Assembly: GCA_030550555.1 (NCBI GenBank)
Contig: JAUQPD010000035.1
Coordinates: 32,576 to 96,575 of the forward strand
From: Thermodesulfobacteriota bacterium
Lineage (GTDB): Bacteria > Desulfobacterota > Thermodesulfobacteria > Thermodesulfobacteriales > Thermodesulfobacteriaceae
Reading direction: 5' to 3'
Length of the DNA stretch: 64,000 bases
Under the pieces are notes generated by a model. That model had not been told where the DNA came from. It worked only from the letters and a program-made list of their open reading frames with translations, and searched no databases. Shown in pieces: positions 11,551 through 53,100 of this stretch. Every line of letters starts with the position of its first letter. Positions within the stretch are counted from its first letter, which is position 1. A program made the translations under genes and the position numbers.

Positions 11551-11644
11551 TGGCGGAGGCGTATGGGAATTGAACCCACCCACTCCTTTTGGGGAGTGCA
11601 CCGGGTTTGAAGCCCGGGAGAGGCACCAGCCTCCTCACGCCTCC
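11551..11644 (-). tRNA. selC: tRNA-Sec (anticodon TCA)
   Basis: Minus strand GGAGGCGT...ACGCCTCC gives an 8-bp acceptor stem, then G + encoded CCA; anticodon arm CCGGG-CTTCAAA-CCCGG with TCA at 11608-11610; long variable arm CACTCC-CCAAAA-GGAGTG. Confidence 0.96.
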
Positions 11645-37050: not shown

Positions 37051-37449
37051 CTATGGGAGCACACCAATTAGTTTAAGAGACAAGTAAGTGCAACCTATCA
37101 CCGCAACCCTCTTTACCCAAATAGGGCTAAGCCTCTTTGAAATCCTGGGAGCAATGAATCCAGCAGAAACAGCGCCAATTGCCATTATTGCAAAGAGGAG
37201 AAGGTCTGTCTGCCCAAAGAAATAGAATCTACTTGAAGCCATAAGAGTGTTAAAGAAAATAGCAAGGAGAGAACTTCCGACAACCACATATATTGGAAGT
37301 CCCATAATAACTGTCATCATTGGAACCACAAAGGGACCACCACCAAACCCACCAAGACTTGCAGCAACCGCTATGATAAAACCACCGATACAACCTATGA
37401 GCATATTTGCCTGAAAGGTTTCTCCCCAAAACTCTATGGTCATTCTCAT
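37051..37449 (-). CDS. TSUP (TauE/SafE) family half-transporter, C-terminal-half-like
   Basis: LIGCIGGFIIAVAASLGGFGGGPFVVPMMTVIMGLPIYVVVGSSL. Confidence 0.8.
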   Translation of the reverse strand: MRMTIEFWGETFQANMLIGCIGGFIIAVAASLGGFGGGPFVVPMMTVIMGLPIYVVVGSSLLAIFFNTLMASSRFYFFGQTDLLLFAIMAIGAVSAGFIAPRISKRLSPIWVKRVAVIGCTYLSLKLIGVLP

Positions 37450-37464
37450 GATTTCACCTCCCCT

Positions 37465-38772
37465 TTAGGATTTTTGTTCCTTTGCAGCCTTAGCTGCAGC
37501 TGCTCTTCTCTTAAATTCCTCAAGAATAGCCTTCTCTTTCTTGGACTTTTCAATGTATCCAGGAGTTGTCTGCCAGAACATAAGGGCAGCAAGAATTAGA
37601 AGTACAATTCCAAAGACAAATTTGTACTCCTCAAGGGTTACGAATTGGTTTAGAAGGGGTCCGAAGAATCCACCAAGGGCCATGAAAATACCTACAGTAA
37701 TTCCAAGTTTCCAGCTGATAAAGCCAATCCTTGAGTAGTTGTATATTCCTGAAGCCTGGCTGAAGAGAACCGTAGGCATAACAGAACCAGCAACAACTCC
37801 ATGTGGAATCTTATAGATTAGGATGAGTAGTGGATTGAGAATAAAACCACCACCTGCTCCCATGAGAACTCCAAAGGTGCATACAGCAAGAGCAAGCGCA
37901 AGTGGTCCGAAGACATTTGTAGAAGTTCCTGCTACTGGAAAGTAAACTTTTGGGAAAGAAACGTCTACCGTAAAATTCACGGGATCACTCTTTACATCCT
38001 TGTTCACAACGGCAACTATAGTATAAGTCCTTGGTGGAGCATTATCAGGCAGTCTAAATGTGGCTTCAAAGGTTCCATCTTCATTAGTTGTAATCTTGGA
38101 AAGACTTGCTATTCTTGGAAGTTCTCTAAATCTTGTTTGGATAAGGCGTGCGGTTTCTCTACGCACCTCCCTTTTATCTGTAAGAGCGGGTTGAGGCTCT
38201 CCTCTCATTCCTATAATTGCCCTTGATACTGTAGTTTTCCAGACCTTGATCTCAGAGACAAGTTGGGGAGGAGTGATAAAGGCCATATCCGCATTTGACT
38301 CTCTGAGAAATTCACCTATTCTCCATCTCTTAGCAGCAAGGAACTTTGCATATACGTCCTTAACAGGCTTCTCTTCAATAGTTCCATTTTTATCAATCTT
38401 AGCTACATAGTCCTCATTAATCACAATGTGATAGAAGGCAGGAATCTCTCTTGAGAGATAGAACATAAAGTCCTTTCTATCTAAACGGGATACTTGCACC
38501 TTTGCATCAACCGCAGTAATCTCGATGAAGTTGACTTTCATACCAGGGGGAACTTGTCCAGTAATTCTGATAGTTTCTCCTCCCCGGTATGTCTGCTTAT
38601 CAACTTTTACCACCACTTTTGGTGCCCCTTCCTCCTTTTTCACCTCCCCAGCAGGAGAGGGAGCTTGCCCTTCCTGTTTCTGCTGAGAAAAGGAAGGGGT
38701 AAAGCTGAATAGCACCAAGAGAAAAACACTAAAAAAGACCAACAAACACTGTTTTAACTTTAACTTACCCAT
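37465..38772 (-). CDS. TSUP (TauE/SafE) family half-transporter with large extracytoplasmic N-terminal domain
   Basis: Signal/TM N-terminus, beta-rich domain (VVVKVDKQTYRGGETIRITGQV), then LALALAVCTFGVLMGAGGGFILNPLLILIYKIPHGVVAGSV; start MGKLKLKQ preferred over ORF start 38835. Confidence 0.78.
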   Translation of the reverse strand: MGKLKLKQCLLVFFSVFLLVLFSFTPSFSQQKQEGQAPSPAGEVKKEEGAPKVVVKVDKQTYRGGETIRITGQVPPGMKVNFIEITAVDAKVQVSRLDRKDFMFYLSREIPAFYHIVINEDYVAKIDKNGTIEEKPVKDVYAKFLAAKRWRIGEFLRESNADMAFITPPQLVSEIKVWKTTVSRAIIGMRGEPQPALTDKREVRRETARLIQTRFRELPRIASLSKITTNEDGTFEATFRLPDNAPPRTYTIVAVVNKDVKSDPVNFTVDVSFPKVYFPVAGTSTNVFGPLALALAVCTFGVLMGAGGGFILNPLLILIYKIPHGVVAGSVMPTVLFSQASGIYNYSRIGFISWKLGITVGIFMALGGFFGPLLNQFVTLEEYKFVFGIVLLILAALMFWQTTPGYIEKSKKEKAILEEFKRRAAAAKAAKEQKS

Positions 38773-38809
38773 ACGCCTCACCTCCTCATTCTTTTTACCA
38801 ATAGTGGCA

Positions 38810-38825
38810 TCAAATTGTATGCCAA
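38810..38825 (-). promoter_or_regulatory. Candidate sigma54 -24/-12 promoter for the TSUP genes
   Basis: Minus strand TTGGCATACAATTTGA vs consensus TGGCAYRNNNYTTGCW; about 24 nt predicted leader before ATG at 38772. Confidence 0.5.
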
Positions 38826-38876
38826 TATCTTGCATTCGATAAGTCCCATTCTGGGTAGATACTCCCTGGAATTGTT

Positions 38877-39070: not shown

Positions 39071-41152
39071 ATGGCAGAAAAGAGAGTTGTTTACAGTCTC
39101 TGTTGTATGTGCTCAGGAAGATGTCCCATTATGGTTGAAGTGGAGGATGGGGTTATCAGACATATTTGGGGAAATCCCCATGTATTTGGGGCAAAGAGTC
39201 TCTGTCCAAGGGGGGCAGCAGGGGTTGCTTTTGAATATGACAATGAGAGACCACAATATCCAATGATTCGCGATGGAGAGCGAGGATCTGGCAAGTGGAG
39301 ACGAGTTAGTTGGGATGAAGCTCTTGATTTTATAGCGGAGAAGTTAAAGAGGATTATTGAAACACATGGAGCAAAGGCTATAGCCCTTAGTGACAGGGGT
39401 GGCCCCCACACAGAACTTCATAAACTCTTTTTGAGAGCTGTTGGTTCTCCAAACTACTTTACTCATCACGCAACCTGCTCAAATAGTGCCCTTAATGCCC
39501 TTATGAGCATTGCAGGGTATGCTGGAGATACAGTAGGTTATGACTATAGAAACTGTAAATATCTCGTTGTCTTTGGAAGGAATCTGCTTGAAAGTTTAAT
39601 TACAGGTGAAGCACGAAATGTTATTGAGATGATCAACTCTGGTGGGAAACTTGTCTACATAGATGTTCGTTGGACCTATACAGCATCAAAGGCCTATAAA
39701 TTCTTTCTTATCAATCCAGGCACTGACTATGCATTAGCACTTGCATTGATAAATTATATCATAAATAATCAGCTTTATGATGTAGAGTTTGTAAACAAAC
39801 ATGTGGTAGGACTTGACTATTTGAGATCCTTTGTTCAGCCCTATAATCCGGAGTGGGCAGAGAAGGAGACAGGAATTCCAGCGGAGGAAATAAAAAAGAT
39901 AGCCATAGAGGCTTCAGAGGCAAAGCCTGCAGTAATCTTTCATCCAGGATGGATGACAGCCTGGAATGAACAGGACTTCTATCTAAGACGTGCAATTTAT
40001 GCTTTAAACGCTTTAATGGGAAGCTATGAGGCAAAGGGAGGAATCTTTGTTGCCAAAGGAGCAGGAGATGCAGGTTATAAGATAAAGCAACCTACTTCTC
40101 TTGCACCCAAGGTCACAGAGGAGAGATGTGATGGAGCAGGGACAAAGTATCCATGGATCAGAGCTCAGTGGGGACTTCTTCAGGTCCTTCCCGAAGTTAT
40201 TGAGACTGGGAAACCCTATCCGATTAAGGCCTACATTGCTATGAGGCATGATCCTCTTGCCAGCATGCCTGATCCTGATGTTTGGATTAGAGCTTTTGAG
40301 AAGCTTGATCTTCTTGTAGCTATTGATGTTAACTGGAGTTGGACATCCTGGTATGCGGATGTAATTTTGCCAGAGGCAACTTATCTTGAAAGAACTGACA
40401 ACGTCATCGTCAGAAGAGGTCTCAGACCGCAACTTGCCTTAAGACAAAAAGTAATTGAACCTCGTTTTGATGCAAGAAGTAGGTTTCAGATATTCAAGGC
40501 CCTTGCGGAAAGACTTGGTAAGGGAGAGTATTTCCCTTGGAAGGATGAAATTGAGATGGTCAATTGGCAATTAGAGGGGACGGGCTTTAAATTTGAAGAT
40601 TTTAGCAAGAAGGGGATAATAGATCTCACCAATGAGCCCATTTGGTATGATAGAAACAATCTCAAATTTGATACCCCCTCAGGAAAGATAGAATTTTATT
40701 CTGAAACCTTAGAAAAAGCGGGGATACCTTCCTTTGCACCCTATCATAGTCCAACAAAACCACCTGAGGGAAGCCTAAGGCTCATCTCAGGCAAGGTTGC
40801 TGTTCATACTCAAGGTAGGACCACAAGTAATAATCCGATCTTAAATGAACTTTGTCCGGAAAATCACCTATACATCCATCCCTCTTTTGCTAAGAAAATG
40901 GGTATTAAGGATGGTGACCTTGTGGAGATAAGTGCTGATGGGGTGGTGGAGCAAATTCGTGTTAGAGTTTCACCCTACGTTCATCCGGAGATAGCCTTTA
41001 TGCTTCATGGTTTTGGAGATGCAGTACAGGTTAGAACCCGCTCTTTCGGTAAAGGAGCAAATGATGTGAGATTGATGAAAGGGAAATTAAAGGTTGCTGT
41101 AGGTGGGAATTGTCCTCTTTTTGAGACCTTTGTTACTTTGAGAAAAATTTAG
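39071..41152 (+). CDS. Molybdopterin oxidoreductase catalytic subunit, PsrA/PhsA-like, without an evident Tat signal
   Basis: N-terminal Fe-S motif CCMCSGRCP; HHATCSNSALNALMSIAGY; C-terminal molydopterin-dinucleotide domain GRTTSNNPILNELCPENHLYIHPSFAKKMGI. Confidence 0.85.
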   Translation: MAEKRVVYSLCCMCSGRCPIMVEVEDGVIRHIWGNPHVFGAKSLCPRGAAGVAFEYDNERPQYPMIRDGERGSGKWRRVSWDEALDFIAEKLKRIIETHGAKAIALSDRGGPHTELHKLFLRAVGSPNYFTHHATCSNSALNALMSIAGYAGDTVGYDYRNCKYLVVFGRNLLESLITGEARNVIEMINSGGKLVYIDVRWTYTASKAYKFFLINPGTDYALALALINYIINNQLYDVEFVNKHVVGLDYLRSFVQPYNPEWAEKETGIPAEEIKKIAIEASEAKPAVIFHPGWMTAWNEQDFYLRRAIYALNALMGSYEAKGGIFVAKGAGDAGYKIKQPTSLAPKVTEERCDGAGTKYPWIRAQWGLLQVLPEVIETGKPYPIKAYIAMRHDPLASMPDPDVWIRAFEKLDLLVAIDVNWSWTSWYADVILPEATYLERTDNVIVRRGLRPQLALRQKVIEPRFDARSRFQIFKALAERLGKGEYFPWKDEIEMVNWQLEGTGFKFEDFSKKGIIDLTNEPIWYDRNNLKFDTPSGKIEFYSETLEKAGIPSFAPYHSPTKPPEGSLRLISGKVAVHTQGRTTSNNPILNELCPENHLYIHPSFAKKMGIKDGDLVEISADGVVEQIRVRVSPYVHPEIAFMLHGFGDAVQVRTRSFGKGANDVRLMKGKLKVAVGGNCPLFETFVTLRKI

Positions 41153-41166
41153 TAGGGGAGGCAAAA

Positions 41167-41685
41167 ATGAGTAAATATGTGATTACTCAGGATCAAAGGA
41201 GGTGTATAGGTTGTCTTGCTTGCATTGTGCACTGTAAGGTGGAGAATAATGTAGGTAAAGGCGCAAAATTCTGTGACATCCTTCCAGTAGGACCAAAGGA
41301 CATTAATGGGGTCCCAAGAATTCTTTTCGTATATATCAATTGTTTCCATTGCGAAGAGGCTTTTTGTATGAAGGCCTGCCCCACTGGGGCTATGACAAGA
41401 AGAAGTCAAGATGGGATTGTTTTCGTGAAAGATGAGTTGTGTATTGGTTGCAAATCCTGTATGAAAGCCTGTCCCTGGGGCATTCCTCAGTGGAATGAAG
41501 AAACAGGTAAAGTTTTTAAATGTCATCTCTGCAAGCATAGAATTGATAAAGGTGAAAAGCCTGCCTGCGTAGAGGGATGTACAACGTCCTGTTTAACATT
41601 TACAGTTCCAGAGGATGCAACTCATAAAGTCAGAAAGGACTATGCGGAAAGGATTGCAGAAAATCTAAGAGCAATGCTCTGGTAG
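41167..41685 (+). CDS. 4Fe-4S ferredoxin-type electron-transfer subunit (DmsB/PsrB-like)
   Basis: CIGCLACIVHCKVEN, CFHCEEAFCMKACPTGAM, CIGCKSCMKACPWGIP, CHLCKHRIDKGEKPACVEGCTTSCL. Confidence 0.92.
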   Translation: MSKYVITQDQRRCIGCLACIVHCKVENNVGKGAKFCDILPVGPKDINGVPRILFVYINCFHCEEAFCMKACPTGAMTRRSQDGIVFVKDELCIGCKSCMKACPWGIPQWNEETGKVFKCHLCKHRIDKGEKPACVEGCTTSCLTFTVPEDATHKVRKDYAERIAENLRAMLW

Positions 41686-41697
41686 TTAAACTTTAAC

Positions 41698-41727
41698 GGG
41701 GCCTCCTCTGTTTGAGGAGCCCTTTTC
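41698..41727 (+). terminator. Rho-independent terminator between the psrAB-like genes and the nuo operon
   Basis: GGG-C-CTCCTC-TGTTT-GAGGAG-CCC followed by TTTT. Confidence 0.7.
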
Positions 41728-41785
41728 GTTGTTTAAAAGAAAAAGTTCAAAGTTATATAAAATTATATTAAATGGAGAAAGGGTA

Positions 41786-42262
41786 ATGGAAATCCTCCTT
41801 GGGAAACTTGATGATCTAATAAACTGGGCGAGGGCCGGCTCTATCTGGCCTGTAACCTTTGGGCTTGCCTGATGTGCTATTGAAATGATGGCTGCAGGTG
41901 CAGCCAGAAATGATTTAGACAGATTTGGCATAATCTTCAGGGCTTCACCGCGTCAGGCTGACTGTCTGATTGTTGCAGGAACTCTTACTTATAAGATGGC
42001 TCCTGTTCTCCGAAGAGTCTATGATCAAATGAGTCATCCTCGTTGGGTTATTGCTATGGGTAGCTGTGCCTGCACTGGAGGAGTTTTTAGGACCTATGCA
42101 ACTGTTCAGGGGGTGGATCAGATTGTGCCTGTTGATGTATATGTCCCTGGATGTCCGCCAAGGCCTGAGGCTCTTATTGAGGGATTGTTAAATCTGCAGA
42201 AAAAAATCAGAGAAGAGAAAAAGAACTGGGGTCCCTATGTCAGAAAAGAGCTTAACTACTAA
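41786..42262 (+). CDS. nuoB: NADH-quinone oxidoreductase subunit B with in-frame TGA, proposed selenocysteine at residue 29
   Basis: ATG 41786 with upstream [92 protein letters not shown]...MGSCACTGG...[14 protein letters not shown] at 41870-41872 replaces the first Cys of the CC motif. Confidence 0.88.
41870..41905 (+). promoter_or_regulatory. Candidate bacterial SECIS element downstream of UGA in nuoB
   Basis: TGA (41870-41872), 17-nt spacer, perfect stem GGCTGC (41890-41895), loop AGGT, GCAGCC (41900-41905); loop GU 26-27 nt after the UGA. Confidence 0.75.
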
Positions 42263-43466
42263 GGAATATATCTATACGACTGAGGATCCCTTTTTCTCGC
42301 CTCTGACAATTCAAATGGGTCCTCAGCATCCCTCAACTCACGGTGTTCTAAAGTTAAATCTGGTCCTCGAAGGAGAGAAGATTATTGATCTCGAGCCAGA
42401 AATAGGATTTCTCCATCGAGGACTTGAAAAGCTTGCAGAAAGTATGAATTATGCTCAGGTCCTACCGCTTACCGATAGATTAGACTACATAAGCGCTATG
42501 AATAACAATACTGGCTATGCTTTAGTCGTGGAGAGACTCCTTGGAATTGAACCCCCTCCCAGAGGTAAATACTTAAGGACGATGGTCTGTGAACTTGCAA
42601 GAATTGCTAGTCACCTACTTTGGCTTGCAACTCATGCCCTGGATATCGGTGCTATGACAGTATTTCTCTATTGCTTTAGAGAGCGAGAGAAGATACTAGA
42701 CTTCTTTGAAATGATTTGTGGTGCAAGGCTTACAGTCAGTTATCCAAGAATAGGTGGAGTTAGGGTTGATGTAGAAGAGAAAGTCTTAGAAGAGATATAT
42801 AACTTTATTCCCTATATGTATGAAAAAATAGAGGAATATGAAGGGCTTCTTTCGCAGAACAGAATCTGGCTTGATAGAACTGTTGGGGTTGGAGTTATTT
42901 CAGCAGAGGAGGCAATAGCATATGGTCTTACCGGTCCTTCTCTTAGGGGTTCTGGCGTTGCCTATGATATAAGAAAACACTTTCCCTATGATGCTTATCC
43001 CGAATTAGACTTTGAAGTTCCTGTTGGGAAAAATGGCGATACCTATGATCGTTATTGGTGTAGGCTTCAGGAAATGCGTCAGTCTCTAAGGATAATAAAA
43101 CAGTGCATAGAGAAAATGCCTGATGGGCCAGTCTGTGCCGAAGTTTCCCCAGATCTCGATATGCAGGTCTTTAAGAGAGCCTTTAGAGCAGAAGCTTGGG
43201 GAGAAAAAACCTTTATTGCCTTTTTGAATGAAGGAGTTGAACTTGTCCCCAAAGGTGAGCTATATTCAGCAGTTGAGGGAGCCAAAGGAGAGCTAGGATT
43301 TTATCTGGTAAGTGACGGCTCTGGAAGACCCTATCGCCTCCACATAAGAGCACCCTCCTATGTACACATTTCTGCCTTGCCCAAACTTTCAAGGGGGCAC
43401 ATGGTTGCAGACCTAGTCGCCATAATAGGAACACTTGACATTGTAATGGGAGAGTGTGATAGATGA
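42237..43466 (+). CDS. nuoD: NADH-quinone oxidoreductase subunit D
   Basis: [45 protein letters not shown]; ends DIVMGECDR. Confidence 0.97.
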
Positions 43467-44020
43467 GAAGAAACCCTTATTATCTTCTCTTTAGAGATCT
43501 CCTCGGTGGACTGCTTATCACTCTGAAAACTCTCTTTAGGAAGCCTGTCACAGTCGAATATCCCAGGGAGAGAGTAAAGGTATATCCATCCTTCAGAGGT
43601 AGACATGCTCTTGTTCGAGATCCCGAGACTGGTGATGCAAGATGTGTAGCTTGTTTAAAATGTGTGCAGGTTTGTCCATCAAGATGTATAGATGTAAAAT
43701 ACGAAATAGATGAGAAAACGGGTGCTAGGATAATGACACAATATAATATTGAGGCTTTAAGGTGTATATATTGTGGATATTGTGAAGAGGTTTGTCCAGT
43801 TGGTGCTATAGTATTAACTGAGTATTTTGAATATTCAGTAAGAACAAGAGAGGAGGCATTTTTTGATAAAGAAAAACTTTTGAAAAATTGGGATGAATTT
43901 ATTGCAAAGTATACAGAGAAAGTATATACAAATAAATTTTGGAATCTTAAAGGTATACCTGATGTACTAAAGCCTGCACCAAAAAGAAAACAACTTGAGG
44001 TTCCAGTTAAGAGGGGTTAG
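43463..44020 (+). CDS. nuoI: NADH-quinone oxidoreductase subunit I
   Basis: CVACLKCVQVCPSRCI and CIYCGYCEEVCPVGAI; GRHALVRDPETGDARC. Confidence 0.95.
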   Translation: MRRNPYYLLFRDLLGGLLITLKTLFRKPVTVEYPRERVKVYPSFRGRHALVRDPETGDARCVACLKCVQVCPSRCIDVKYEIDEKTGARIMTQYNIEALRCIYCGYCEEVCPVGAIVLTEYFEYSVRTREEAFFDKEKLLKNWDEFIAKYTEKVYTNKFWNLKGIPDVLKPAPKRKQLEVPVKRG

Positions 44021-44409
44021 TGATGGTGGGACCAGATAGTTATGTTCCCTCTGCCTATCTACCAGTTTTGATAATGTTAATTGTTGCTCTACTTTTTGGA
44101 CTCGGAGGTTTAATATTCGGTGCTCTTGTTAGACCGAAGGCATATTATTCTCTAAAGTTACTTCCTTATGAATGTGGAAATGAACCTAGTGGGTTGCCTT
44201 GGCAGAGGATAACGATTCGTTATTTTCCAATTGCTATTCTCTTTGCGGTTTTTGATGTTGAGATCGGATTGTTATATATCTGGTGTGTAGGATTTTCACA
44301 GCTATCAGTTATTGGTTTTTGGATAATGATAGTTTTTCTACTTATAATCCTTATTGGCTTTGTTTATGATATGAAGAGAGGATTACTTGATTGGCAGAGG
44401 GTTCTATGA
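44020..44409 (+). CDS. nuoA: NADH-quinone oxidoreductase subunit A
   Basis: LLPYECGNEPSGLPWQRITIRYFPIAILFAVFDVEIGLLYIW. Confidence 0.95.
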   Translation: MMVGPDSYVPSAYLPVLIMLIVALLFGLGGLIFGALVRPKAYYSLKLLPYECGNEPSGLPWQRITIRYFPIAILFAVFDVEIGLLYIWCVGFSQLSVIGFWIMIVFLLIILIGFVYDMKRGLLDWQRVL

Positions 44410-44936
44410 AAGAAAGATTGAGAGAAGTTCTTGAAAGGTTTAAAGTTAACTTTAGTGCCTACATAATAGATATCAATGAGTTTCGTGGGCAGACTTTTGT
44501 AATCCTTGGAGATGGATCTCCCATTAGAGATATTGTAGGATTTCTAAAAACAGAAGGGTTTAATCATCTCCAAACACTTACAGCTGTAGATTATCTGCAA
44601 AAGAGTGGTGTTCCTAGATTTGAAGTAGTCTATCAATTTTATAGCATAGATCAAGGGATATCTTTAAGGCTTAGACTCCAGGTCTCAGAGGACAAGCCTG
44701 AGGTTGAGAGTATTGTAGATCTGTTCCCCTCTGCCAACTTTTTTGAAAGAGAGGTCTACGACCTTTTTGGAATACGATTTATGGGGCATCCTAATCTCAA
44801 GAGGATTCTCTTGCCTCAGAACTGGGAGGGGCACCCTTTAAGAAAGGACTATCCTCTTATGCCTGAGGATAAACCGAGGGACTTCCTTGAACTTGTTGAA
44901 TTAAAGGAGAGGTTAGGAGGATATGGCATTAGGTGA
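44406..44936 (+). CDS. nuoC: NADH-quinone oxidoreductase subunit C
   Basis: PSANFFEREVYDLFGIRFMGHPNLKRILLPQNWEGHPLRKDYPL. Confidence 0.95.
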   Translation: MKERLREVLERFKVNFSAYIIDINEFRGQTFVILGDGSPIRDIVGFLKTEGFNHLQTLTAVDYLQKSGVPRFEVVYQFYSIDQGISLRLRLQVSEDKPEVESIVDLFPSANFFEREVYDLFGIRFMGHPNLKRILLPQNWEGHPLRKDYPLMPEDKPRDFLELVELKERLGGYGIR

Positions 44937-45945
44937 GAGTTTACCCTTACATCTTGAGATTCTTATTGTTTTGATCAAGATTGCCATAGTATTAGGAGTG
45001 TTTTTATTTCACGCAGCCTATACGGTCTATGCGGAGAGAAAGATTCTTGGAAGAATGCAGGCGCGACTTGGGCCAAGAGAAGTTGGTCCCTACGGACTTC
45101 TTCAACCAATTGCAGACCTTGTAAAACTTCTCTTTAAGGAGGATATAGTTCCCGCAGAAGCCCACAAGACGCTATTTAAAATTGCTCCCCTTCTTGTTCT
45201 GACTTTTGCAATTGTTAACCTGAGTGTCATCCCCTTTCATCCTTCATTTATTATAGCGGATGTAAATCTGGGGGTTCTTCTAATTCTAGCCTTTGCAGGT
45301 CTTGGAACTTATGGCATCATCCTTGCAGGTTATTCATCTGGCTCTAAATACTCCCTTCTTGGAGGTCTCCGCTCTGCATCTCAAATTCTTAGTTATGAGA
45401 TTCCCTTAAGCCTTAGCTTAGCAGGGGTCATACTATATGCAGAATCGTTCCATTTGAGAGACATAGTTGAAGTCCAAGTAAATTCCCTTTTTGGGATAAA
45501 TGTCTTTCCCCAGATCTTGGGATTTATTGTCTTCTTAATTTGTGCTTTTGCAGAGACGAATAGAGCACCTTTTGATCTTCCTGAGGCTGAAAGTGAGCTT
45601 GTAGCTGGGTACATTACAGAATATTCAGGATTTCGTATGGGACTATTCTTTTTAGGTGAATACATTTCTATGTATGTTATGGCTCTTTTAATTTCTATTT
45701 GTTATTTTGGTGGCTGGGCTTTCCCTTGGTGGTTAGCAAATGCGCTACCCTTTTTGAAAGCAATTCCCCCCACACTTGTCTTAGCATTAAAGGTTTATTT
45801 CTTTATCTTCCTATTTATATGGGTTAGAGCAACATTTCCTAGATATAGGTTTGATCAACTTATGAGTATGAGTTGGAAGATTCTTATTCCTCTTTCTCTT
45901 ATTAATTTTTTGATTGTTGCCCTTATTAAGTGGTTGGGGGTTTAA
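44923..45945 (+). CDS. nuoH: NADH-quinone oxidoreductase subunit H
   Basis: AERKILGRMQARLGPREVGPYGLLQPIADLVKLLFKED; ETNRAPFDLPEAESELVAGYITEYSG. Confidence 0.97.
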   Translation: MALGESLPLHLEILIVLIKIAIVLGVFLFHAAYTVYAERKILGRMQARLGPREVGPYGLLQPIADLVKLLFKEDIVPAEAHKTLFKIAPLLVLTFAIVNLSVIPFHPSFIIADVNLGVLLILAFAGLGTYGIILAGYSSGSKYSLLGGLRSASQILSYEIPLSLSLAGVILYAESFHLRDIVEVQVNSLFGINVFPQILGFIVFLICAFAETNRAPFDLPEAESELVAGYITEYSGFRMGLFFLGEYISMYVMALLISICYFGGWAFPWWLANALPFLKAIPPTLVLALKVYFFIFLFIWVRATFPRYRFDQLMSMSWKILIPLSLINFLIVALIKWLGV

Positions 45946-45948
45946 ATA

Positions 45949-46461
45949 ATGATTGAACGTGCTATAAGTCTTTTGATAATATCTAGCCTTTTCTTTTTCT
46001 TTCTACTATTGACTTATTATTTCAGGCATTTTATCTATCAATTTTTATCTATACTTGTTTTAATGGTCCTACAAGGTGTTCTATTTCTTTATTTAAATGC
46101 AGAATTTCTTGCTGCTGTTCAGATTATTGTATATGTAGGAGCTATCTTAATTATGTTTCTGTTTTCCCTTTTTCTATTTCCTGAAGAAGAGTTGAAGGGA
46201 ATAAAAACTGACGTTTCAAGGATTAGCTATAAGACCTTTATTCCAATTGGTTTATTAGTTCTTTTATTGGTTATTTCATTATATAGAGCAGTTCCTGAAA
46301 ATTATTCTAAACAAGAATTTCTTTCCGATATCAAAGTTATCGGAAATTTTTTGTTTAATGAATACTGGTTTTTGATTTATCTTCTTGCCTTTATATTAAG
46401 CTTGCCAATGGTTGCTTTATATATTTTCTTTAGGAGGGAGGATGCTTCAAGAAATAATTAA
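45949..46461 (+). CDS. nuoJ: NADH-quinone oxidoreductase subunit J
   Basis: VLYLNAEFLAAVQIIVYVGAILIMFLFSLFL-type motif, position between nuoH and nuoK. Confidence 0.93.
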   Translation: MIERAISLLIISSLFFFFLLLTYYFRHFIYQFLSILVLMVLQGVLFLYLNAEFLAAVQIIVYVGAILIMFLFSLFLFPEEELKGIKTDVSRISYKTFIPIGLLVLLLVISLYRAVPENYSKQEFLSDIKVIGNFLFNEYWFLIYLLAFILSLPMVALYIFFRREDASRNN

Positions 46462-46780
46462 TTTCTTTGCCAAAGAGTATATCTTTTATCTTATATCAGG
46501 TATGCTTATTTTTCTTGGAATATCACTTTTTCTTCTTCGTAAGAATCTTTTAATTGCAATTCTTGCTTTAGAGGTTGCTTTTAATGGAGTTAATTTAGCC
46601 TTTGCAACAGCTAGTCATTATCTTGGTGATCCCAAGGGAAAGATGGTTGTCCTTGTAACTCTTGCTATAGCTGCAGGTTCCTTTTCAATTGGACTAATAT
46701 TAGTTGTAAACTATTATAGGCTAAAGAGAAGTCTTTCTTTTGATGAACTAAAGCTCCTAGGGGAGAGAGATGAAGAGTGA
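46442..46780 (+). CDS. nuoK: NADH-quinone oxidoreductase subunit K
   Basis: MLIFLGISLFLLRKNLLIAILALEVAFNGVNLAF; start MLQEII at 46442 after TAGGAGGG. Confidence 0.93.
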   Translation: MLQEIINFFAKEYIFYLISGMLIFLGISLFLLRKNLLIAILALEVAFNGVNLAFATASHYLGDPKGKMVVLVTLAIAAGSFSIGLILVVNYYRLKRSLSFDELKLLGERDEE

Positions 46781-48284
46781 GGCTTTATTTCCACTTCTTG
46801 CAATTTTAGTATCTGCTATAGCTGTTCCATTTATTATATACTTTGGAGATAAAAAGCCCAATCATCGCGAAGCAGTATCTGTGATTGCTGGTATACTTAA
46901 ATTTTTATTCGTTTGCTTATTAATTCCTATAGTGCTTGAAAAAGGTTCATACACTGTTGAACTTATAAAGCTTTATGAAGGCATATCAATAAAGCTTCTT
47001 GTGGATCCCCTTGGGCTACTTTTTGCATTAGGTGCTTCCTTCCTTTGGATTTTGACTACTTTTTATTCCATAGGATATATGAGAGGCACTCACGCTATAA
47101 GGCAGACGAGATATTATGTCTCCTTTGCACTTTCGCTTACCGCAACTATGGGAGTTGCCTTTGCTGGAAATCTCCTGACTCTCTTTTTGTTTTATGAACT
47201 CATGTCAATTGTCACTTATCCTTTAGTTGCCCACAAGGAGGATGAGGAGGCCCTTGAGGGAGCTAGGAAATATGTAATATACCTACTTGGCACCGCAAAG
47301 CTCTTCCTAATTCCTGCAATGGCCATTACATATTTTGTTGCTGGAACGCTTGATTATACCCCAAGGGGAATTTTTACTCAGGACATGCTTGAGCAACATC
47401 GCCTATTGCTACAGATAGCACTTATCCTCTATCTTTATGGTTATAATAAGTGTGCCATAATGCCACTTCATAGCTGGCTACCTTCAGCGATGGTAGCTCC
47501 AACACCTGTTTCTGCTCTCCTTCACGCAGTTGCAGTAGTAAAGACAGGTGCCTTTGCAAATGTTAGGGTATTACTTAACATCTACGGAAAGGATGGAGTA
47601 ATTGGACTTGGTCTCCAAGAGTTTATACTTTTTATTACTGCCCTCACGATAATTGTTGGATCCGCAATAGCACTCACCCGTCAGAACTTCAAGGCAAGAC
47701 TTGCCTTTTCAACAGTTAGTCAGCTTTCTTATATAGTCTTTGGAACTGCCCTCTTTACACCTCTTTCAGTCATTGGTGGAATTCTTCACATTACTGCACA
47801 CGCCTTTTCAAAAATTACACTCTTTTTTTCAGCAGGCTCAGTATATGTCTCCACTCATTACACCGAAATACCTCAATTTGATGGCTTAGCAAGAAAGATG
47901 CCTTTAACTTTTACTGCTTTCTTTCTTGCTAGTTTAAGTATGATAGGAATTCCCGGATTTATCGGTTTCTGGAGTAAATTTAATTTAGTTAAGGGCTGTC
48001 TTACCGCAGGATTAATTAGTGGAGCCCTTGTCTTCTTAATAAGTTCCTTTTTAAATACTGCCTATTTTCTGCCAATTGTCTTTAGAGCACTTCTAAAGGA
48101 TCCTTATCAACCAAGTAAGGAAGAACAACATCATCATCACTACACACCTTATGAAAAGATAAAAGAAAATTATTTTTGTGCTATACCTTTATTTATAACA
48201 GCTATTCTTACAATAGTTCTTGCAAGTCAAATAGAGCATCTTTACAAGCTATTGAAGTTAATAGAGGTGCTATATGTGGACTAA
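46770..48284 (+). CDS. Complex I / Mrp antiporter-like subunit (first of four)
   Basis: FLFYELMSIVTYPLVAHKEDEEALEGARKYVIYLLGTAKLF; LHSWLPSAMVAPTPVSALLHAVAVVKTGAF; antiporter-family motifs. Confidence 0.88.
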   Translation: MKSEALFPLLAILVSAIAVPFIIYFGDKKPNHREAVSVIAGILKFLFVCLLIPIVLEKGSYTVELIKLYEGISIKLLVDPLGLLFALGASFLWILTTFYSIGYMRGTHAIRQTRYYVSFALSLTATMGVAFAGNLLTLFLFYELMSIVTYPLVAHKEDEEALEGARKYVIYLLGTAKLFLIPAMAITYFVAGTLDYTPRGIFTQDMLEQHRLLLQIALILYLYGYNKCAIMPLHSWLPSAMVAPTPVSALLHAVAVVKTGAFANVRVLLNIYGKDGVIGLGLQEFILFITALTIIVGSAIALTRQNFKARLAFSTVSQLSYIVFGTALFTPLSVIGGILHITAHAFSKITLFFSAGSVYVSTHYTEIPQFDGLARKMPLTFTAFFLASLSMIGIPGFIGFWSKFNLVKGCLTAGLISGALVFLISSFLNTAYFLPIVFRALLKDPYQPSKEEQHHHHYTPYEKIKENYFCAIPLFITAILTIVLASQIEHLYKLLKLIEVLYVD

Positions 48285-48519
48285 AGAAGATAAGAAAAAC
48301 ATAAGCTTATCATTAGTGCTATTTATAATTTTCTTAGTGCTTTCTATTGTTGGGTATTTCTTTTTTCCAAAGGAAAAGCACTTTAGTTTTGAAAAAATAC
48401 CTTTTTTTGAGGGATTGTTTGGATTAGTAGGAGCTCTATTCTTAACACTTGTTGTTAAGATAACGGGAAAGCTTGTTTCTCGTAAGGAGGAAGATTATGA
48501 TAGATATTATACCTCCTAA
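48274..48519 (+). CDS. Small two-TM protein of unknown function within the complex I operon
   Basis: Hydrophobic 81-aa ORF overlapping both flanking antiporter genes by about 11-23 nt. Confidence 0.6.
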   Translation: MWTKEDKKNISLSLVLFIIFLVLSIVGYFFFPKEKHFSFEKIPFFEGLFGLVGALFLTLVVKITGKLVSRKEEDYDRYYTS

Positions 48520-50257
48520 TCTTCCTGCTCTTCTACTTGGGCCGATAATATATTTCTTTTACAGAAAAAGTCTGAATTATTTAGCTCTTGCTACAGCTTT
48601 GCTTACTTTTATTTTGACAATAAAACTAGAACCTGGTATTTATGGTGGTTTCAAAATTTTAGGATACGAATTTCTCCTTAAGGTTGATGCCTTGTCCCTA
48701 TTTTTTGCTTATGTCTTTTCAATGTTTGGTTTTATAGGACTACTTTATGCATTACATGTAGATGACCGTATACAGATAACTGCAGGTTTAATGTATATGG
48801 CCTGTGCAGTTGGAGTAGCTTTTGCTTATGACATTCTTAGTTTTTATCTCTTTTGGGAAGGGCTCGCAATATTTGCAGTGTTGCTTATTATATCAGCAAG
48901 GACAAAGGTTGCCTATTTTTCCTCAATTAGATATATCTTGGTTCATGTTATTAGTGGACTTTCTCTATTTCTCGGTATACTTATGCTTTGGATTGACTAT
49001 TCTATAATTACCTTAGAGAATTATCGTGAACTTTTTGGAACAATACCTTACTTTTTAATACTGCTTGCCTTTGTGATAAATGCAGCTGTTCCACCGCTAA
49101 ACGCATGGCTTCCTGATGCCTATCCGAATTCTACGATTTATGGATCTGTTTTTCTCTGTGCCTTTACAACTAAAAGTGCAGTTTATGCACTAATTAGAGT
49201 CTTTCCTGGAGACATGCTCTTAGCTATTGCAGGTGCTCTAATGGCTTTTTATGGTGTTATCTATGCAATCCTGGAGAATAATCCTCGCAGGCTTTTATCT
49301 TATCACACAATAAGTCAGGTTGGTTTTATGGTATGTGGGGCTGGATTAGGAAGTTATGAGGCATTAAATGGGGCTTCAGCTCACGCTTTTGCCCATATCA
49401 TCTACGAGGGACTTCTTTTTATGTCAGTAGGAGCTATAATTTACGCAACTGGAATTGAGAGAATTCATCAGCTTGGTGGTTTCGTAAGAAAAAATCCTTG
49501 GATAACACTCTATTTCTTTGTAGGAGCTCTCTCGATCTCAGGTGTGCCTCTGACATGTGGTTTTGTCTCAAAGAGTATAACAATACACTCTGCTTCAGCT
49601 CTTCACCGGCCTTTTGAATTTCTACTGATGGAACTTGCCTCCATTGGAACCTTTTTCAACATTGTATTGAGGATGGGCTATCATATCTTCTTCGGTGAGG
49701 AGAAACCCTATACAGCAAGACCTGTTCCATGGAATATGCATGTTGCCATGATTATTGCTTCAGCTCTTTGTATTCTTATTGGGCTTTTTCCTGGTATTTA
49801 CTATAAATTTTTACCCTATCCCATCCATTATGAACCTTATACTTATGGTCACATAGTAGGTATGCTTGCACTCTTTTCTGGTGTTACAGTAATTTTCTTT
49901 TTTGTCCGACCTTTAATAGCACCAAAGCCTAAAATTAATCTTGATACAGATTGGTTTTATATATCAATATCAAGAGTTATATATCGATTTGTGGTAAAGG
50001 TGCTTGAACCTTTTGAATATAAATATGTTGGAGAATTCTATAAATCTCTTGTTGACAAGTTACTTGCCAATTTGAGGAATACTTTATTTTTATTTAATGA
50101 TGGACTATTAATCTCTCTAAACAAGGAATTTCCCTTGCGTATTAATTCGATTCCTAAAAAAATAGCAAACATATTTGATGGTAGTTTGCTAAAATATCTA
50201 CAAATTTTTATTATTGCTATTATAATTTTTTATCTTATGTCATTAATAAGTTTTTAA
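48497..50257 (+). CDS. Complex I / Mrp antiporter-like subunit (second of four)
   Basis: MIDIIPPNLPALLLGP; VDALSLFFAYVFSMFGFIGLLYALH; LNAWLPDAYPNSTIYGSVFLCAFTTKSAVYALIR. Confidence 0.88.
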   Translation: MIDIIPPNLPALLLGPIIYFFYRKSLNYLALATALLTFILTIKLEPGIYGGFKILGYEFLLKVDALSLFFAYVFSMFGFIGLLYALHVDDRIQITAGLMYMACAVGVAFAYDILSFYLFWEGLAIFAVLLIISARTKVAYFSSIRYILVHVISGLSLFLGILMLWIDYSIITLENYRELFGTIPYFLILLAFVINAAVPPLNAWLPDAYPNSTIYGSVFLCAFTTKSAVYALIRVFPGDMLLAIAGALMAFYGVIYAILENNPRRLLSYHTISQVGFMVCGAGLGSYEALNGASAHAFAHIIYEGLLFMSVGAIIYATGIERIHQLGGFVRKNPWITLYFFVGALSISGVPLTCGFVSKSITIHSASALHRPFEFLLMELASIGTFFNIVLRMGYHIFFGEEKPYTARPVPWNMHVAMIIASALCILIGLFPGIYYKFLPYPIHYEPYTYGHIVGMLALFSGVTVIFFFVRPLIAPKPKINLDTDWFYISISRVIYRFVVKVLEPFEYKYVGEFYKSLVDKLLANLRNTLFLFNDGLLISLNKEFPLRINSIPKKIANIFDGSLLKYLQIFIIAIIIFYLMSLISF

Positions 50258-50274
50258 AGAGAGGGGATTGAAAT

Positions 50275-51663
50275 ATGTTGCTAAAGGAATATGCAGTTAT
50301 TTCACTCTTAGGGTTTATTTTAGGACTAATGTTTCTCGGAAAACGCCAAACTACCTCATTTCCCAATATTTTCTTTAAAATTTTTATACTTCTAAATCTT
50401 CCTTTTCTCTTGATGTTAACTGAAAAATATCTTCAAGATGGTGTTTTTGAAGTAACTTATTTTGAAGGATTGGGTATAAGGCTAAAGCTTTATTTAGATC
50501 TTGCAGGATTATCTTTTCTTTGGTTAAACTATCTACTTTTTGCCTTTCTTGTAATTTTTATCAATAAAATTAATCAGTCAAGTTTAATGAATACACTTTT
50601 ATTAATGCTTTTCTCAGTAAATAATTTGTTTTTCATTGCAGGAGATTCCCTGACCTTTTTGATTTTTTGGGAGGCAATGCTAATTCCAGCCACTCTTTTA
50701 TTGTGGTATTTTTCAGCAGGTGATAGAATGAGAAATGCCTTAGAATTTATTATTTATAATTTTGGTTTTAGTATCTTTCTTATTTTGGGAGTACTTTTAA
50801 TTTTCAAATTTAAGGGTGCTTTTGAGTATAATTTTAGTGGCATCTCTCATGATTATATAATTGCTCTTTTATTGTTTATTGGAATTATGGTCAAAACACC
50901 AGTATTCCCTTTACATGGATGGCTTATCAATACTTATTACAACTTGCCTTCACCTATCACTGCAATATTTTCAGGAATTCTTAGTAAATACGCCATTTAT
51001 GCATTCTATAGGCTTTTTGCTGATGTTTCTATGATATATGGTTTTTTACTTTTAGTAGTTATTTTGTCCTCCATCATATCGTCATTTCTTGCATGGTCTC
51101 AGAGGGATTTAAAAAAGATTTTTACCTACATGAGTATGAGTCATTTGAACATTATGTTAGCAGGTGGATTAGCATTAGCTCCCTATGGTGGTATAACTAT
51201 TTTAGTTCCCTTTTCTCTCTTTCACGGACTATTAGCTTTTATTCTATTTCTTTACTGCTACCATCTTGAACTCTATGGTAAATCTCTTATCATTAATGAC
51301 TATGGTGCCCTAACTTTAACTCATCCTTTTTTTACCTTTTTCTTCACGTCATATCTATTAATCCTTGCTGGTTTTCCATTATTTGGTTACTTTTATCTTG
51401 AATTTATTGTTGTTTCTTCAGTTTTTAAGTATTCCCTACTTTTTGGGTTTTTATTAATCATTGCTATGTCAATTAATCTTATTTACAAATCTGTAGTGTT
51501 TTACAAATTGGTCTTCTCAAAGCAAAGTGGAAGTGGGTCTAAAACCTTAATAGATCTTTCTTTTTCTCAAATTTTGTTAAGTTTTATAATTCTTCTAATT
51601 GTTTTAATATTAACGTTTTATCTATATGAATTTCTTAAGCTCTTCACTTCAGGGGGTGTTTAG
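50275..51663 (+). CDS. nuoM: NADH-quinone oxidoreductase subunit M-like
   Basis: DLAGLSFLWLNYLL; FLIFWEAMLIPATLLLWYF; KTPVFPLHGWLINTYYNLPSPITAIFSGILSKYAIYAFYR. Confidence 0.9.
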   Translation: MLLKEYAVISLLGFILGLMFLGKRQTTSFPNIFFKIFILLNLPFLLMLTEKYLQDGVFEVTYFEGLGIRLKLYLDLAGLSFLWLNYLLFAFLVIFINKINQSSLMNTLLLMLFSVNNLFFIAGDSLTFLIFWEAMLIPATLLLWYFSAGDRMRNALEFIIYNFGFSIFLILGVLLIFKFKGAFEYNFSGISHDYIIALLLFIGIMVKTPVFPLHGWLINTYYNLPSPITAIFSGILSKYAIYAFYRLFADVSMIYGFLLLVVILSSIISSFLAWSQRDLKKIFTYMSMSHLNIMLAGGLALAPYGGITILVPFSLFHGLLAFILFLYCYHLELYGKSLIINDYGALTLTHPFFTFFFTSYLLILAGFPLFGYFYLEFIVVSSVFKYSLLFGFLLIIAMSINLIYKSVVFYKLVFSKQSGSGSKTLIDLSFSQILLSFIILLIVLILTFYLYEFLKLFTSGGV

Positions 51664-53100
51664 ATGGGAGTTTTTTCAGCATTCTTTCCAGAATTCTTTC
51701 TTTCATTATCATCAATTGTTTTACTCGTCTTTAATATATTTTTTATAAATAATTTTAAAAATAGATATTTAATATGGCTGTCCTTTTTTTTGATTTCTAC
51801 CTTTTTATTTTTAGTCACTCCGTCAACTTTACAGTTACATAACATAGATGGAAATTTTATAAACAGTTCAGGACTATTCTATCTTAGGATATTTATTTTC
51901 TTTTCACTCTGTTTGATATATCTAAGTTCTTATAATATTCTTATTAAATCTCCATATTTAAATGAATTTTCTTTCTTTTTAGGAATTACTGTATCCTTCT
52001 TGTCTTTTTTACTCTCATCTACTAATTTTCTTATAGCTTTTGTTCTTATTGAATCTATATCTTTTGCATTTTATCTACTTGTAAGCTTCTATAGAAATAA
52101 TCTTTTATCTGTTGAAGCAGGTTTAAAATATTTTTATTTAGGAACTTTTTCATCTTTAATTTTCCTTACCGGACTTTTTTTAATTTATTACTCGACTCTT
52201 TCCTTCTCATTCGGGTCAATTTCAGAAATTCTCTCTTCCACTTCGAATAGTAATATTTATACGATAGGACTATTGCTTATTTTTCTTTCTTTGGTTTTTA
52301 AATTAGGAGGAGCACCGCTACAATTCTGGTTGCCTGAGGTTTATCAGGGATCTCCATTTATTGTTTTCCCACTTCTCATTTCTATTTCTAAATTAGCTTT
52401 TGGCGTTTTTCTCGCAAACGTTTATTATCTCTTTCTCGTTCCTAATGCTTTTTATATTAACATGTCAAATATAAAAATTCTCTTTTTTATAGTAAGCTTA
52501 TTATCAATGCTTATAGGTAATCTTTTAGCACTTAAACAAAATGAAGTCAAGCGACTCCTTGCCTATTCCTCAATAGCACATGTTGGATATTTTATGTCTC
52601 TCTTAAGCTTAGATCCGAATCCAATGAATTATCATCTGCTCTGTGGATATCTTTTTATTTATGCTTTAACAAATTTAGCTCTATTAGTTACATTACAACT
52701 TAATAATATTAATCAATTAGTCAAAATTTCTTTTAACCAATATGAACAAATGCTGCCAGAGTGTCCAATACTTCTTTTTTCTCTATTAGTGTTTATTTTT
52801 TCTCTAGCTGGTCTTCCTCCTACCGCTGGATTCATTACTAAGCTTTTTATCCTTCTTGAACTGATAAAAAATGGTGCTTATTTATTATCATTCGTCTTTC
52901 TTCTAACTTCAATCCTAGCAATTTATTATTATTTTAGATTAACTAGACCTATTCTAAAAATAATTGCTAATAGACAAGATATATTATCATCAGAAAGAAA
53001 AATAGAACTTCGTGATGTAATATTAAAAATTATACTATTGATTTGTAGTCTTTATCTTATCCTCTCTGTATTTAAGCCAAGTTATATTTTCTTTATGTAA
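51664..53100 (+). CDS. nuoN: NADH-quinone oxidoreductase subunit N-like
   Basis: GLKYFYLGTFSSLIFLTGLFLIY; FKLGGAPLQFWLPEVYQGSPFIVFPLLISISKLAFG; NEVKRLLAYSSIAHVGYFM. Confidence 0.9.
   Translation: MGVFSAFFPEFFLSLSSIVLLVFNIFFINNFKNRYLIWLSFFLISTFLFLVTPSTLQLHNIDGNFINSSGLFYLRIFIFFSLCLIYLSSYNILIKSPYLNEFSFFLGITVSFLSFLLSSTNFLIAFVLIESISFAFYLLVSFYRNNLLSVEAGLKYFYLGTFSSLIFLTGLFLIYYSTLSFSFGSISEILSSTSNSNIYTIGLLLIFLSLVFKLGGAPLQFWLPEVYQGSPFIVFPLLISISKLAFGVFLANVYYLFLVPNAFYINMSNIKILFFIVSLLSMLIGNLLALKQNEVKRLLAYSSIAHVGYFMSLLSLDPNPMNYHLLCGYLFIYALTNLALLVTLQLNNINQLVKISFNQYEQMLPECPILLFSLLVFIFSLAGLPPTAGFITKLFILLELIKNGAYLLSFVFLLTSILAIYYYFRLTRPILKIIANRQDILSSERKIELRDVILKIILLICSLYLILSVFKPSYIFFM

Follow-up and report, generated by a model that had tools for sequence, protein, structure and literature searches.

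A candidate thiosulfate/polysulfide-reductase-type head for the headless complex I of a Caldimicrobium-type bacterium

Thiosulfate and polysulfide reductases of the PhsABC/PsrABC type combine a Mo-bisPGD-type catalytic subunit, which has a Cys ligand and an FS0 cluster, with a four-cluster B subunit and a C anchor (NrfD or cytochrome b). Thiosulfate reduction by menaquinol through PhsABC is reported to consume proton-motive force. Pairs that lack the anchor are found in sulfur disproportionators. For example, PhsA-1, PhsB-1, Nuo and NuoB of Desulfolithobacter dissulfuricans carry consecutive tags (GF1_30490-30520). Both Nuo proteins were detected only under thiosulfate disproportionation, NuoB ranked within the ten most abundant proteins detected only in that condition, PhsA-1 was detected in both growth modes, and the authors remarked that Phs is without subunit C (PMC9751629). 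The Desulfobulbaceae PhsAB papers noted the missing anchor and a possible loss of quinone contact, and drew no link to the adjacent nuo genes as membrane partner (PMC9751629, PMC13047784). In Desulfurivibrio dismutans, sulfur disproportionation went with strong upregulation of a headless Nuo, which may rely on 'some unknown electron-donating oxidoreductase' (PMC12142623). What feeds the headless complex I and how anchorless PhsAB exchanges electrons are both stated as open questions (PMC12142623, PMC9751629, PMC13047784). Another CISM enzyme of sulfur disproportionators, MolyABC of the MOLY cluster, has a predicted extracellular MolyAB and a TorD-type chaperone (PMC12998232). Leaderless MopB proteins with a ferredoxin-type subunit also sit on complex-I-like or NuoEF modules in formate hydrogenlyase-type and NAD-linked formate dehydrogenase systems, which may offer an analogy. 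The Archaeoglobus thiosulfate reductase was rejected as a model, since it is Tat-exported and so not comparable.

The two puzzles come together in one gene cluster of the window analysed here, a 64-kb stretch of a Caldimicrobium-type genome (Table 1). The cluster encodes a leaderless, anchorless PsrAB pair followed directly by a headless complex I. We think it reasonably probable, from sequence evidence, that this pair is a Mo/W and Fe-S module of the thiosulfate/polysulfide-reductase type, docked on the complex and handling a sulfur substrate. The Desulfobulbaceae PhsAB is probably the same pair, and PhsA-1 of D. dissulfuricans, judged from gene order and not from sequence, would be the orthologue of PsrA. 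Joining anchorless PhsAB to headless Nuo is new relative to the earlier reports (PMC9751629, PMC12142623, PMC13047784).

Table 1. Features of the psrAB-nuo region and related elements of the window.
Feature	Coordinates	Strand	Basis
TauE C-half	37051..37449	-	PF01925; recurrent psrAB neighbour
TauE N-half fused to N-terminal extra domain	37465..38835	-	PF01925; recurrent psrAB neighbour
psrA, leaderless PsrA/PhsA-like molybdopterin oxidoreductase catalytic subunit, 693 aa	39071..41152	+	profile and PDB matches, leaderless clade
psrB, four-cluster [4Fe-4S] protein, 172 aa	41167..41685	+	DmsB profile, 2vpw_B, conserved cluster Cys
Terminator-like hairpin in the 100-bp psrB-nuoB gap of the Caldimicrobium-type genome	41703..41719	+	T-rich tail 3'
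nuoB, in-frame TGA (putative selenocysteine) at first Cys of N2-cluster CC motif, 158 aa	41786..42262	+	translation through TGA
TGA codon, probably read as selenocysteine	41870..41872	+	recurrence across genomes, translation
SECIS-like hairpin UGGCUGC-AGGU-GCAGCCA, 3' of TGA	41889..41906	+	z -2.0; Sec vs Cys orthologue comparison
nuoD	42237..43466	+	NuoD 512.5 bits, above cut-off
nuoI	43463..44020	+	profile search
nuoA	44020..44409	+	profile search
nuoC	44391..44936	+	profile search
nuoH	44923..45945	+	profile search
nuoJ	45949..46461	+	position and conserved synteny
nuoK	46412..46780	+	position and conserved synteny
Antiporter-like subunit 1, MrpD-like, extra vs canonical L, M, N	46770..48284	+	profile search
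81-aa membrane protein, kept in operon across genus	48274..48519	+	synteny
Antiporter-like subunit 2, MrpD/NuoL-like, 594 aa	48473..50257	+	PRK12668 579 bits, above cut-off
Antiporter-like subunit 3, NuoM-like	50275..51663	+	profile search
Antiporter-like subunit 4, NuoN	51664..53100	+	profile search
tRNA-Sec	11551..11644	-	genome decodes selenocysteine

The fold of the 693-aa PsrA (39071-41152, + strand; MAEKRVVYSLCCMCSGRCP) is assigned unambiguously by sequence. The best PDB match is Thermus PsrA (2vpw_A, E 2.9e-109), followed by acetylene hydratase, and the top NCBIfam profile is PhsA at 548.5 bits, under the equivalog cut-off of 694; a PhsA family search of the genome itself and of control genomes gave no match above that cut-off. 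The ligands are intact: the Fe-S site CxxCxxxC-x26-C is formed by C11, C14, C18 and C45, the Mo ligand C136 aligns with C173 of T. thermophilus PsrA, and all five residues are invariant across 92 leaderless sequences. With the first cluster Cys already at residue 11, there is no space for a Tat leader. Upstream of the ATG and its ribosome-binding-like GGGAGGG, the open frame extends over just 18 codons (KTIFKTTPFWGHYTREGS), in which a frame scan found no ATG, GTG or TTG and no RR, so a leader from a usual start is impossible and an alternative upstream start was rejected. The lack of a Tat leader, reported in a first-pass annotation of this DNA, is thereby borne out, and the upstream exported start that would have spoken against it was searched for and not found.

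Leaderless relatives are not confined to this genome. In a FastTree phylogeny of 92 such sequences with exported relatives and reference enzymes (SoeA not among them), the ~92 leaderless proteins form a single clade with local support of 0.958, whose sister is the enterobacterial PhsA of E. coli and Proteus. PsrA is thus placed beside PhsA and not within an unrelated substrate clade, the outcome that the first-pass annotation had named as contrary to its view. None of the ~92 members has the usual twin-arginine leader, even if translation is taken from the farthest possible upstream start, whereas in PhsA and in those exported relatives whose leader can be measured the cluster is preceded by 46-55 aa with an SRRxFLK-type (SRRDFLK) twin-arginine motif. 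A state shared by the whole clade, set against exported paralogues with such leaders, is above chance. An ordinary exported PsrA-NrfD-PsrB set in the same genome, on contig C47 (L163, 4994-9111), has a Tat leader, an NrfD-like anchor and a B subunit, and can serve as a natural control for leaderless psrAB.

The active site of the clade is also distinctive. The position of Arg332 in Thermus PsrA is occupied by Trp in 89 of the 92 leaderless sequences, which means that the clade may act on a different substrate from PsrA or PhsA. R109, H132, R307, R392 and H638 do not vary within the clade and, R307 excepted, are mostly replaced by other residues in exported relatives. By its sequences, the clade forms a subgroup of its own within the PsrA/PhsA type, for which an identical substrate is not to be assumed. 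Acetylene hydratase and other enzymes perform non-sulfur chemistry within the same superfamily. The Trp, the five invariant residues and the rank of acetylene hydratase among the structure matches could accordingly be read as signs that PsrAB acts on a non-sulfur substrate, such as a carbon compound. We regard this as quite improbable, given that the clade is sister to PhsA, occurs in sulfur-cycling lineages and has TauE neighbours, and that the linked Nuo subunits' proteome is specific to disproportionation. A sulfur compound (thiosulfate, polysulfide or sulfite) is the likely substrate, a reading supported by the PhsA sister position, the recurrent TauE neighbour and the proteomics of a disproportionator (PMC9751629).

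The gene that follows psrA encodes a DmsB/NrfC-like protein. It matches the DmsB profile at 130 bits (under cut-off), its best structure match is 2vpw_B (E 6.5e-30), and it has four cluster-binding Cys groups with conserved cluster Cys; the PsrB/DmsB-like ferredoxin proposed earlier is confirmed by these matches. No NrfD/PsrC anchor gene lies 3' of psrB, where the nuo genes come next, again as had been proposed. Of the further proposal that a terminator separates psrB from nuoB, the first part stands, in that a terminator-like hairpin is present. However, the psrB-nuoB gap is 100 bp in the window and 10-24 bp in six relatives, so the genes are not terminator-separated in general. With no leader in the clade, no anchor, and NuoEF or NAD(P)-type flavoprotein neighbours elsewhere, the suggested cytoplasmic location of PsrA is well supported, and PsrAB is a cytoplasmic redox module. 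It differs in these respects from PhsABC/PsrABC, from which the Arg332 replacement, the score under the PhsA cut-off and a partner that is complex I or a flavoprotein also set it apart. Unlike MolyAB it is leaderless, and no TorD-type gene was recognised beside psrAB in the window or among its recurrent neighbours.

Linkage to complex I is conserved well beyond the window. A complex I operon directly follows psrAB in at least 35 non-redundant loci of Thermodesulfobacteriota and Nitrospirota. With the window proteins as tblastn queries, psrA-psrB-nuo was found in Caldimicrobium, Thermodesulfatator, the Thermodesulfobacteriaceae genus g6 (G011) and a third family (G025), and also in named members of Desulfobulbaceae, Desulfocapsa, other Deltaproteobacteria and Nitrospirota. 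Of the named loci, 64 extend more than 2.5 kb downstream of psrA, and 24 of these have nuoA or nuoB there; in about 60% of loci psrAB has no adjoining nuo. PsrA and NuoD distances are correlated over 40 loci (Mantel r 0.82, 0/5000 permutations), a set that includes some duplicate assemblies and a result that vertical co-inheritance alone could also give. In the first-pass annotation the headless complex I was no more than a gene neighbour; conserved synteny marks it as the likely partner. Two nuo orders occur: Caldimicrobium and Nitrospirota have B-D-I-A-C-H-J-K, and the other loci A-B-C-D-H-I-J-K.

Caldimicrobium psrA groups in the tree with Nitrospirota sequences (L069, L076, L077) and not with Thermodesulfatator, and the nuo order of the 39071-44409 cluster likewise matches that of Nitrospirota, unlike that of Thermodesulfatator. 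A transfer of the whole psrAB-nuo cluster between the Caldimicrobium and Nitrospirota lineages is possible on this basis. In Thermodesulfatator-type operons (L094, L028, L031), psrB and nuoA are separated by a further gene for a PsrB-like ferredoxin, the second of the operon.

The complex I of the window comprises NuoABCDHIJK and L/M/N-type subunits, and absence of the NADH module was judged on NuoF, a family that was not detected in this genome (G000). Across the Thermodesulfobacteriales genomes searched, no full NuoF was found, with weak partial matches in five. The NuoD translation contains PQHPSTHG and DRLDY, which we take to be the quinone-site motif. NuoBCDI, a membrane arm and the undetected NuoF liken the complex to the 11-subunit (headless, Fpo-like) and 2M forms, from which it differs in the 5' molybdoenzyme pair and, in many members, a probable selenocysteine in NuoB. 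Besides the 81-aa membrane protein, four antiporter-like subunits are encoded in 46770-53100, which suggests that ion stoichiometry may be altered; four such subunits recall the 2M type. For Nitrospira, a role in reverse electron transport has been proposed for the 2M complex I, which has an extra NuoM (PMC6606698). A second headless complex I is encoded in the same genome (L162, G000:C42), with the order A-B-C-D-H-I-J-K, three antiporter-like subunits and no psrAB; a gene for a 138-aa PsrB-like ferredoxin precedes it.

The first nuo gene of the psrAB-linked operon has an unusual feature of its own. Its start is 41786, and not the 41885 of the ORF caller, because the frame is interrupted by a TGA where the N2 motif has its first Cys. 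The gene reads GLA-TGA-TGT-GCT, and translation through the TGA gives GLA-U-CAIEMM. The same TGA occurs in other Caldimicrobium (G002, G004, G006), in six genomes of the Thermodesulfatator family (f3), in one Nitrospirota locus and in deltaproteobacterial loci. A sequencing error or pseudogene was rejected, as the codon recurs in many genomes, including that of the isolate Thermodesulfatator autotrophicus. Selenocysteine NuoB was also rejected as a marker of psrAB linkage: the TGA is present in psrAB-less complex I operons of other Desulfobacterota families (loci L182-L197) too. The second NuoB of the window's genome (L162 operon) is without it.

Set against its synonymous recodings, the 24-nt segment after the codon has the stronger fold in 26 of the 29 Sec sequences and in 1 of the 21 Cys sequences (p 9e-9 by rank test, for sequences that are not phylogenetically independent). 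The window's own hairpin reaches only z -2.0 against dinucleotide shuffles, so the SECIS case rests on this comparison of Sec and Cys orthologues; an Rfam scan of the nuoB region gave no match. Selenocysteine machinery is encoded in the genome, namely tRNA-Sec, SelB (G000:C47) and SelA (G000:C52). Since TGA and hairpin recur across Desulfobacterota, NuoB is a probable selenoprotein, and likely a new family. It is unlisted in two reviews of prokaryotic selenoproteins, whose 'NADH:ubiquinone oxidoreductase subunit E' is NqrE and not NuoB. If confirmed, a selenocysteine ligand at N2 would define a new family of selenoproteins and provide a naturally occurring variant at the most-studied cluster of complex I.

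Taken with the gene order, PsrAB is most likely the electron-exchange head of the headless complex I, a reading with which the D. dissulfuricans proteome is in agreement (PMC9751629). We infer that it docks at the place of NuoEFG, which would account for the missing membrane anchor. Electrons would pass between the Mo-bound sulfur substrate, the PsrA [4Fe-4S] cluster, the four PsrB clusters, NuoI, the N2 cluster of NuoB (with its putative selenocysteine) and menaquinone, and the membrane arm would couple this exchange to ion movement. Two features of the window's genome count against such docking, namely the hairpin between psrB and nuoB and the second headless complex I without psrAB. Also against the model are the loci in which psrAB lacks a nuo neighbour, the Trp in the pocket and the detection of PhsA-1 in both growth modes of D. 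dissulfuricans. The proposed head also departs from the formate hydrogenlyase and formate dehydrogenase analogues, being PsrA-type and not FdhF, with quinone-binding NuoD in place of the hydrogenase.

The most likely reaction would be thiosulfate <-> sulfite + sulfide, or sulfane sulfur <-> sulfide, in the cytoplasm. In a thiosulfate-reducing mode, electrons would come from menaquinol at the expense of proton-motive force; in the opposite mode, sulfur compounds would be oxidised and complex I would pump. The relevant potentials lie near -402 mV for thiosulfate/(sulfite + sulfide), -516 mV for sulfate/sulfite and -75 mV for menaquinone. By these values, menaquinol-driven thiosulfate reduction would cost proton-motive force and sulfite oxidation would permit pumping, but depending on cell concentrations the potential of the thiosulfate couple can move by hundreds of millivolts, and the direction of PsrAB is therefore not fixed by potentials. 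If the model is true, cytoplasmic thiosulfate (or sulfite) chemistry would be coupled to ion translocation by a novel complex I. The broadest form of this proposal, a new complex I type with a cytoplasmic thiosulfate/sulfur molybdoenzyme as head, N2 held by selenocysteine and a central role in energy conservation during sulfur disproportionation, is tentative, and we would put it at slightly under even.

Pumping driven by sulfite is the core of another account, in which PsrAB-Nuo would be the missing sulfite oxidoreductase of disproportionators, oxidising cytoplasmic sulfite to sulfate (about -516 mV) while complex I pumps and menaquinone is reduced. We consider it unlikely. The nearest named family of PsrA is PhsA, a thiosulfate reductase, and SoeABC, the known cytoplasmic sulfite dehydrogenase, has an NrfD anchor. 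In its favour, the cytoplasm is where sulfite is made, a TauE sulfite-exporter-family gene adjoins psrAB, and the change of the pocket Arg to Trp suggests changed chemistry; moreover, a sulfite oxidoreductase has been proposed for disproportionators, yet its gene was not found in D. dissulfuricans (PMC9751629).

Loci without nuo point to other partners for PsrAB. A gene for a Fer4_20/Pyr_redox (NAD(P)-type) flavoprotein often lies 3' of psrAB in these loci, forming a cluster of 27 neighbours. In Nitrospirota, NuoE and NuoF come after psrB at locus L065, and a NuoF-like/Pyr_redox fusion at L080. None of 26 nuo-linked loci has the Fer4/Pyr_redox neighbour, and neither NuoEF nor an NAD(P)-type flavoprotein was seen after psrAB in any nuo-linked locus. 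Since these downstream proteins act in the cytoplasm, PsrAB looks like a movable cytoplasmic head for either a pyridine-nucleotide flavoprotein or a headless complex I. The many clade members that lie away from nuo with such neighbours would also suit a soluble cytoplasmic thiosulfate/polysulfide reductase that draws electrons from ferredoxin or NAD(P)H flavoproteins, the nuo adjacency being incidental. That adjacency, however, recurs in both phyla and under both nuo arrangements, and the flavoprotein never occurs in nuo-linked loci, which makes a purely soluble enzyme improbable and favours PsrAB as the head of complex I.

On its other side, psrAB borders the TauE genes. The halves adjoin psrAB in many loci, and in Nitrospirota they lie directly upstream on the same strand. 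TauE is split here into two genes (37051-38835), the first with an extra N-terminal domain, and the pair recurs beside psrAB. At two further loci (L038, L039) the neighbours are two-component regulator genes, and the protein encoded next door appears by eye to be PhnD-type periplasmic sensor-like, reminiscent of tetrathionate or thiosulfate sensing.
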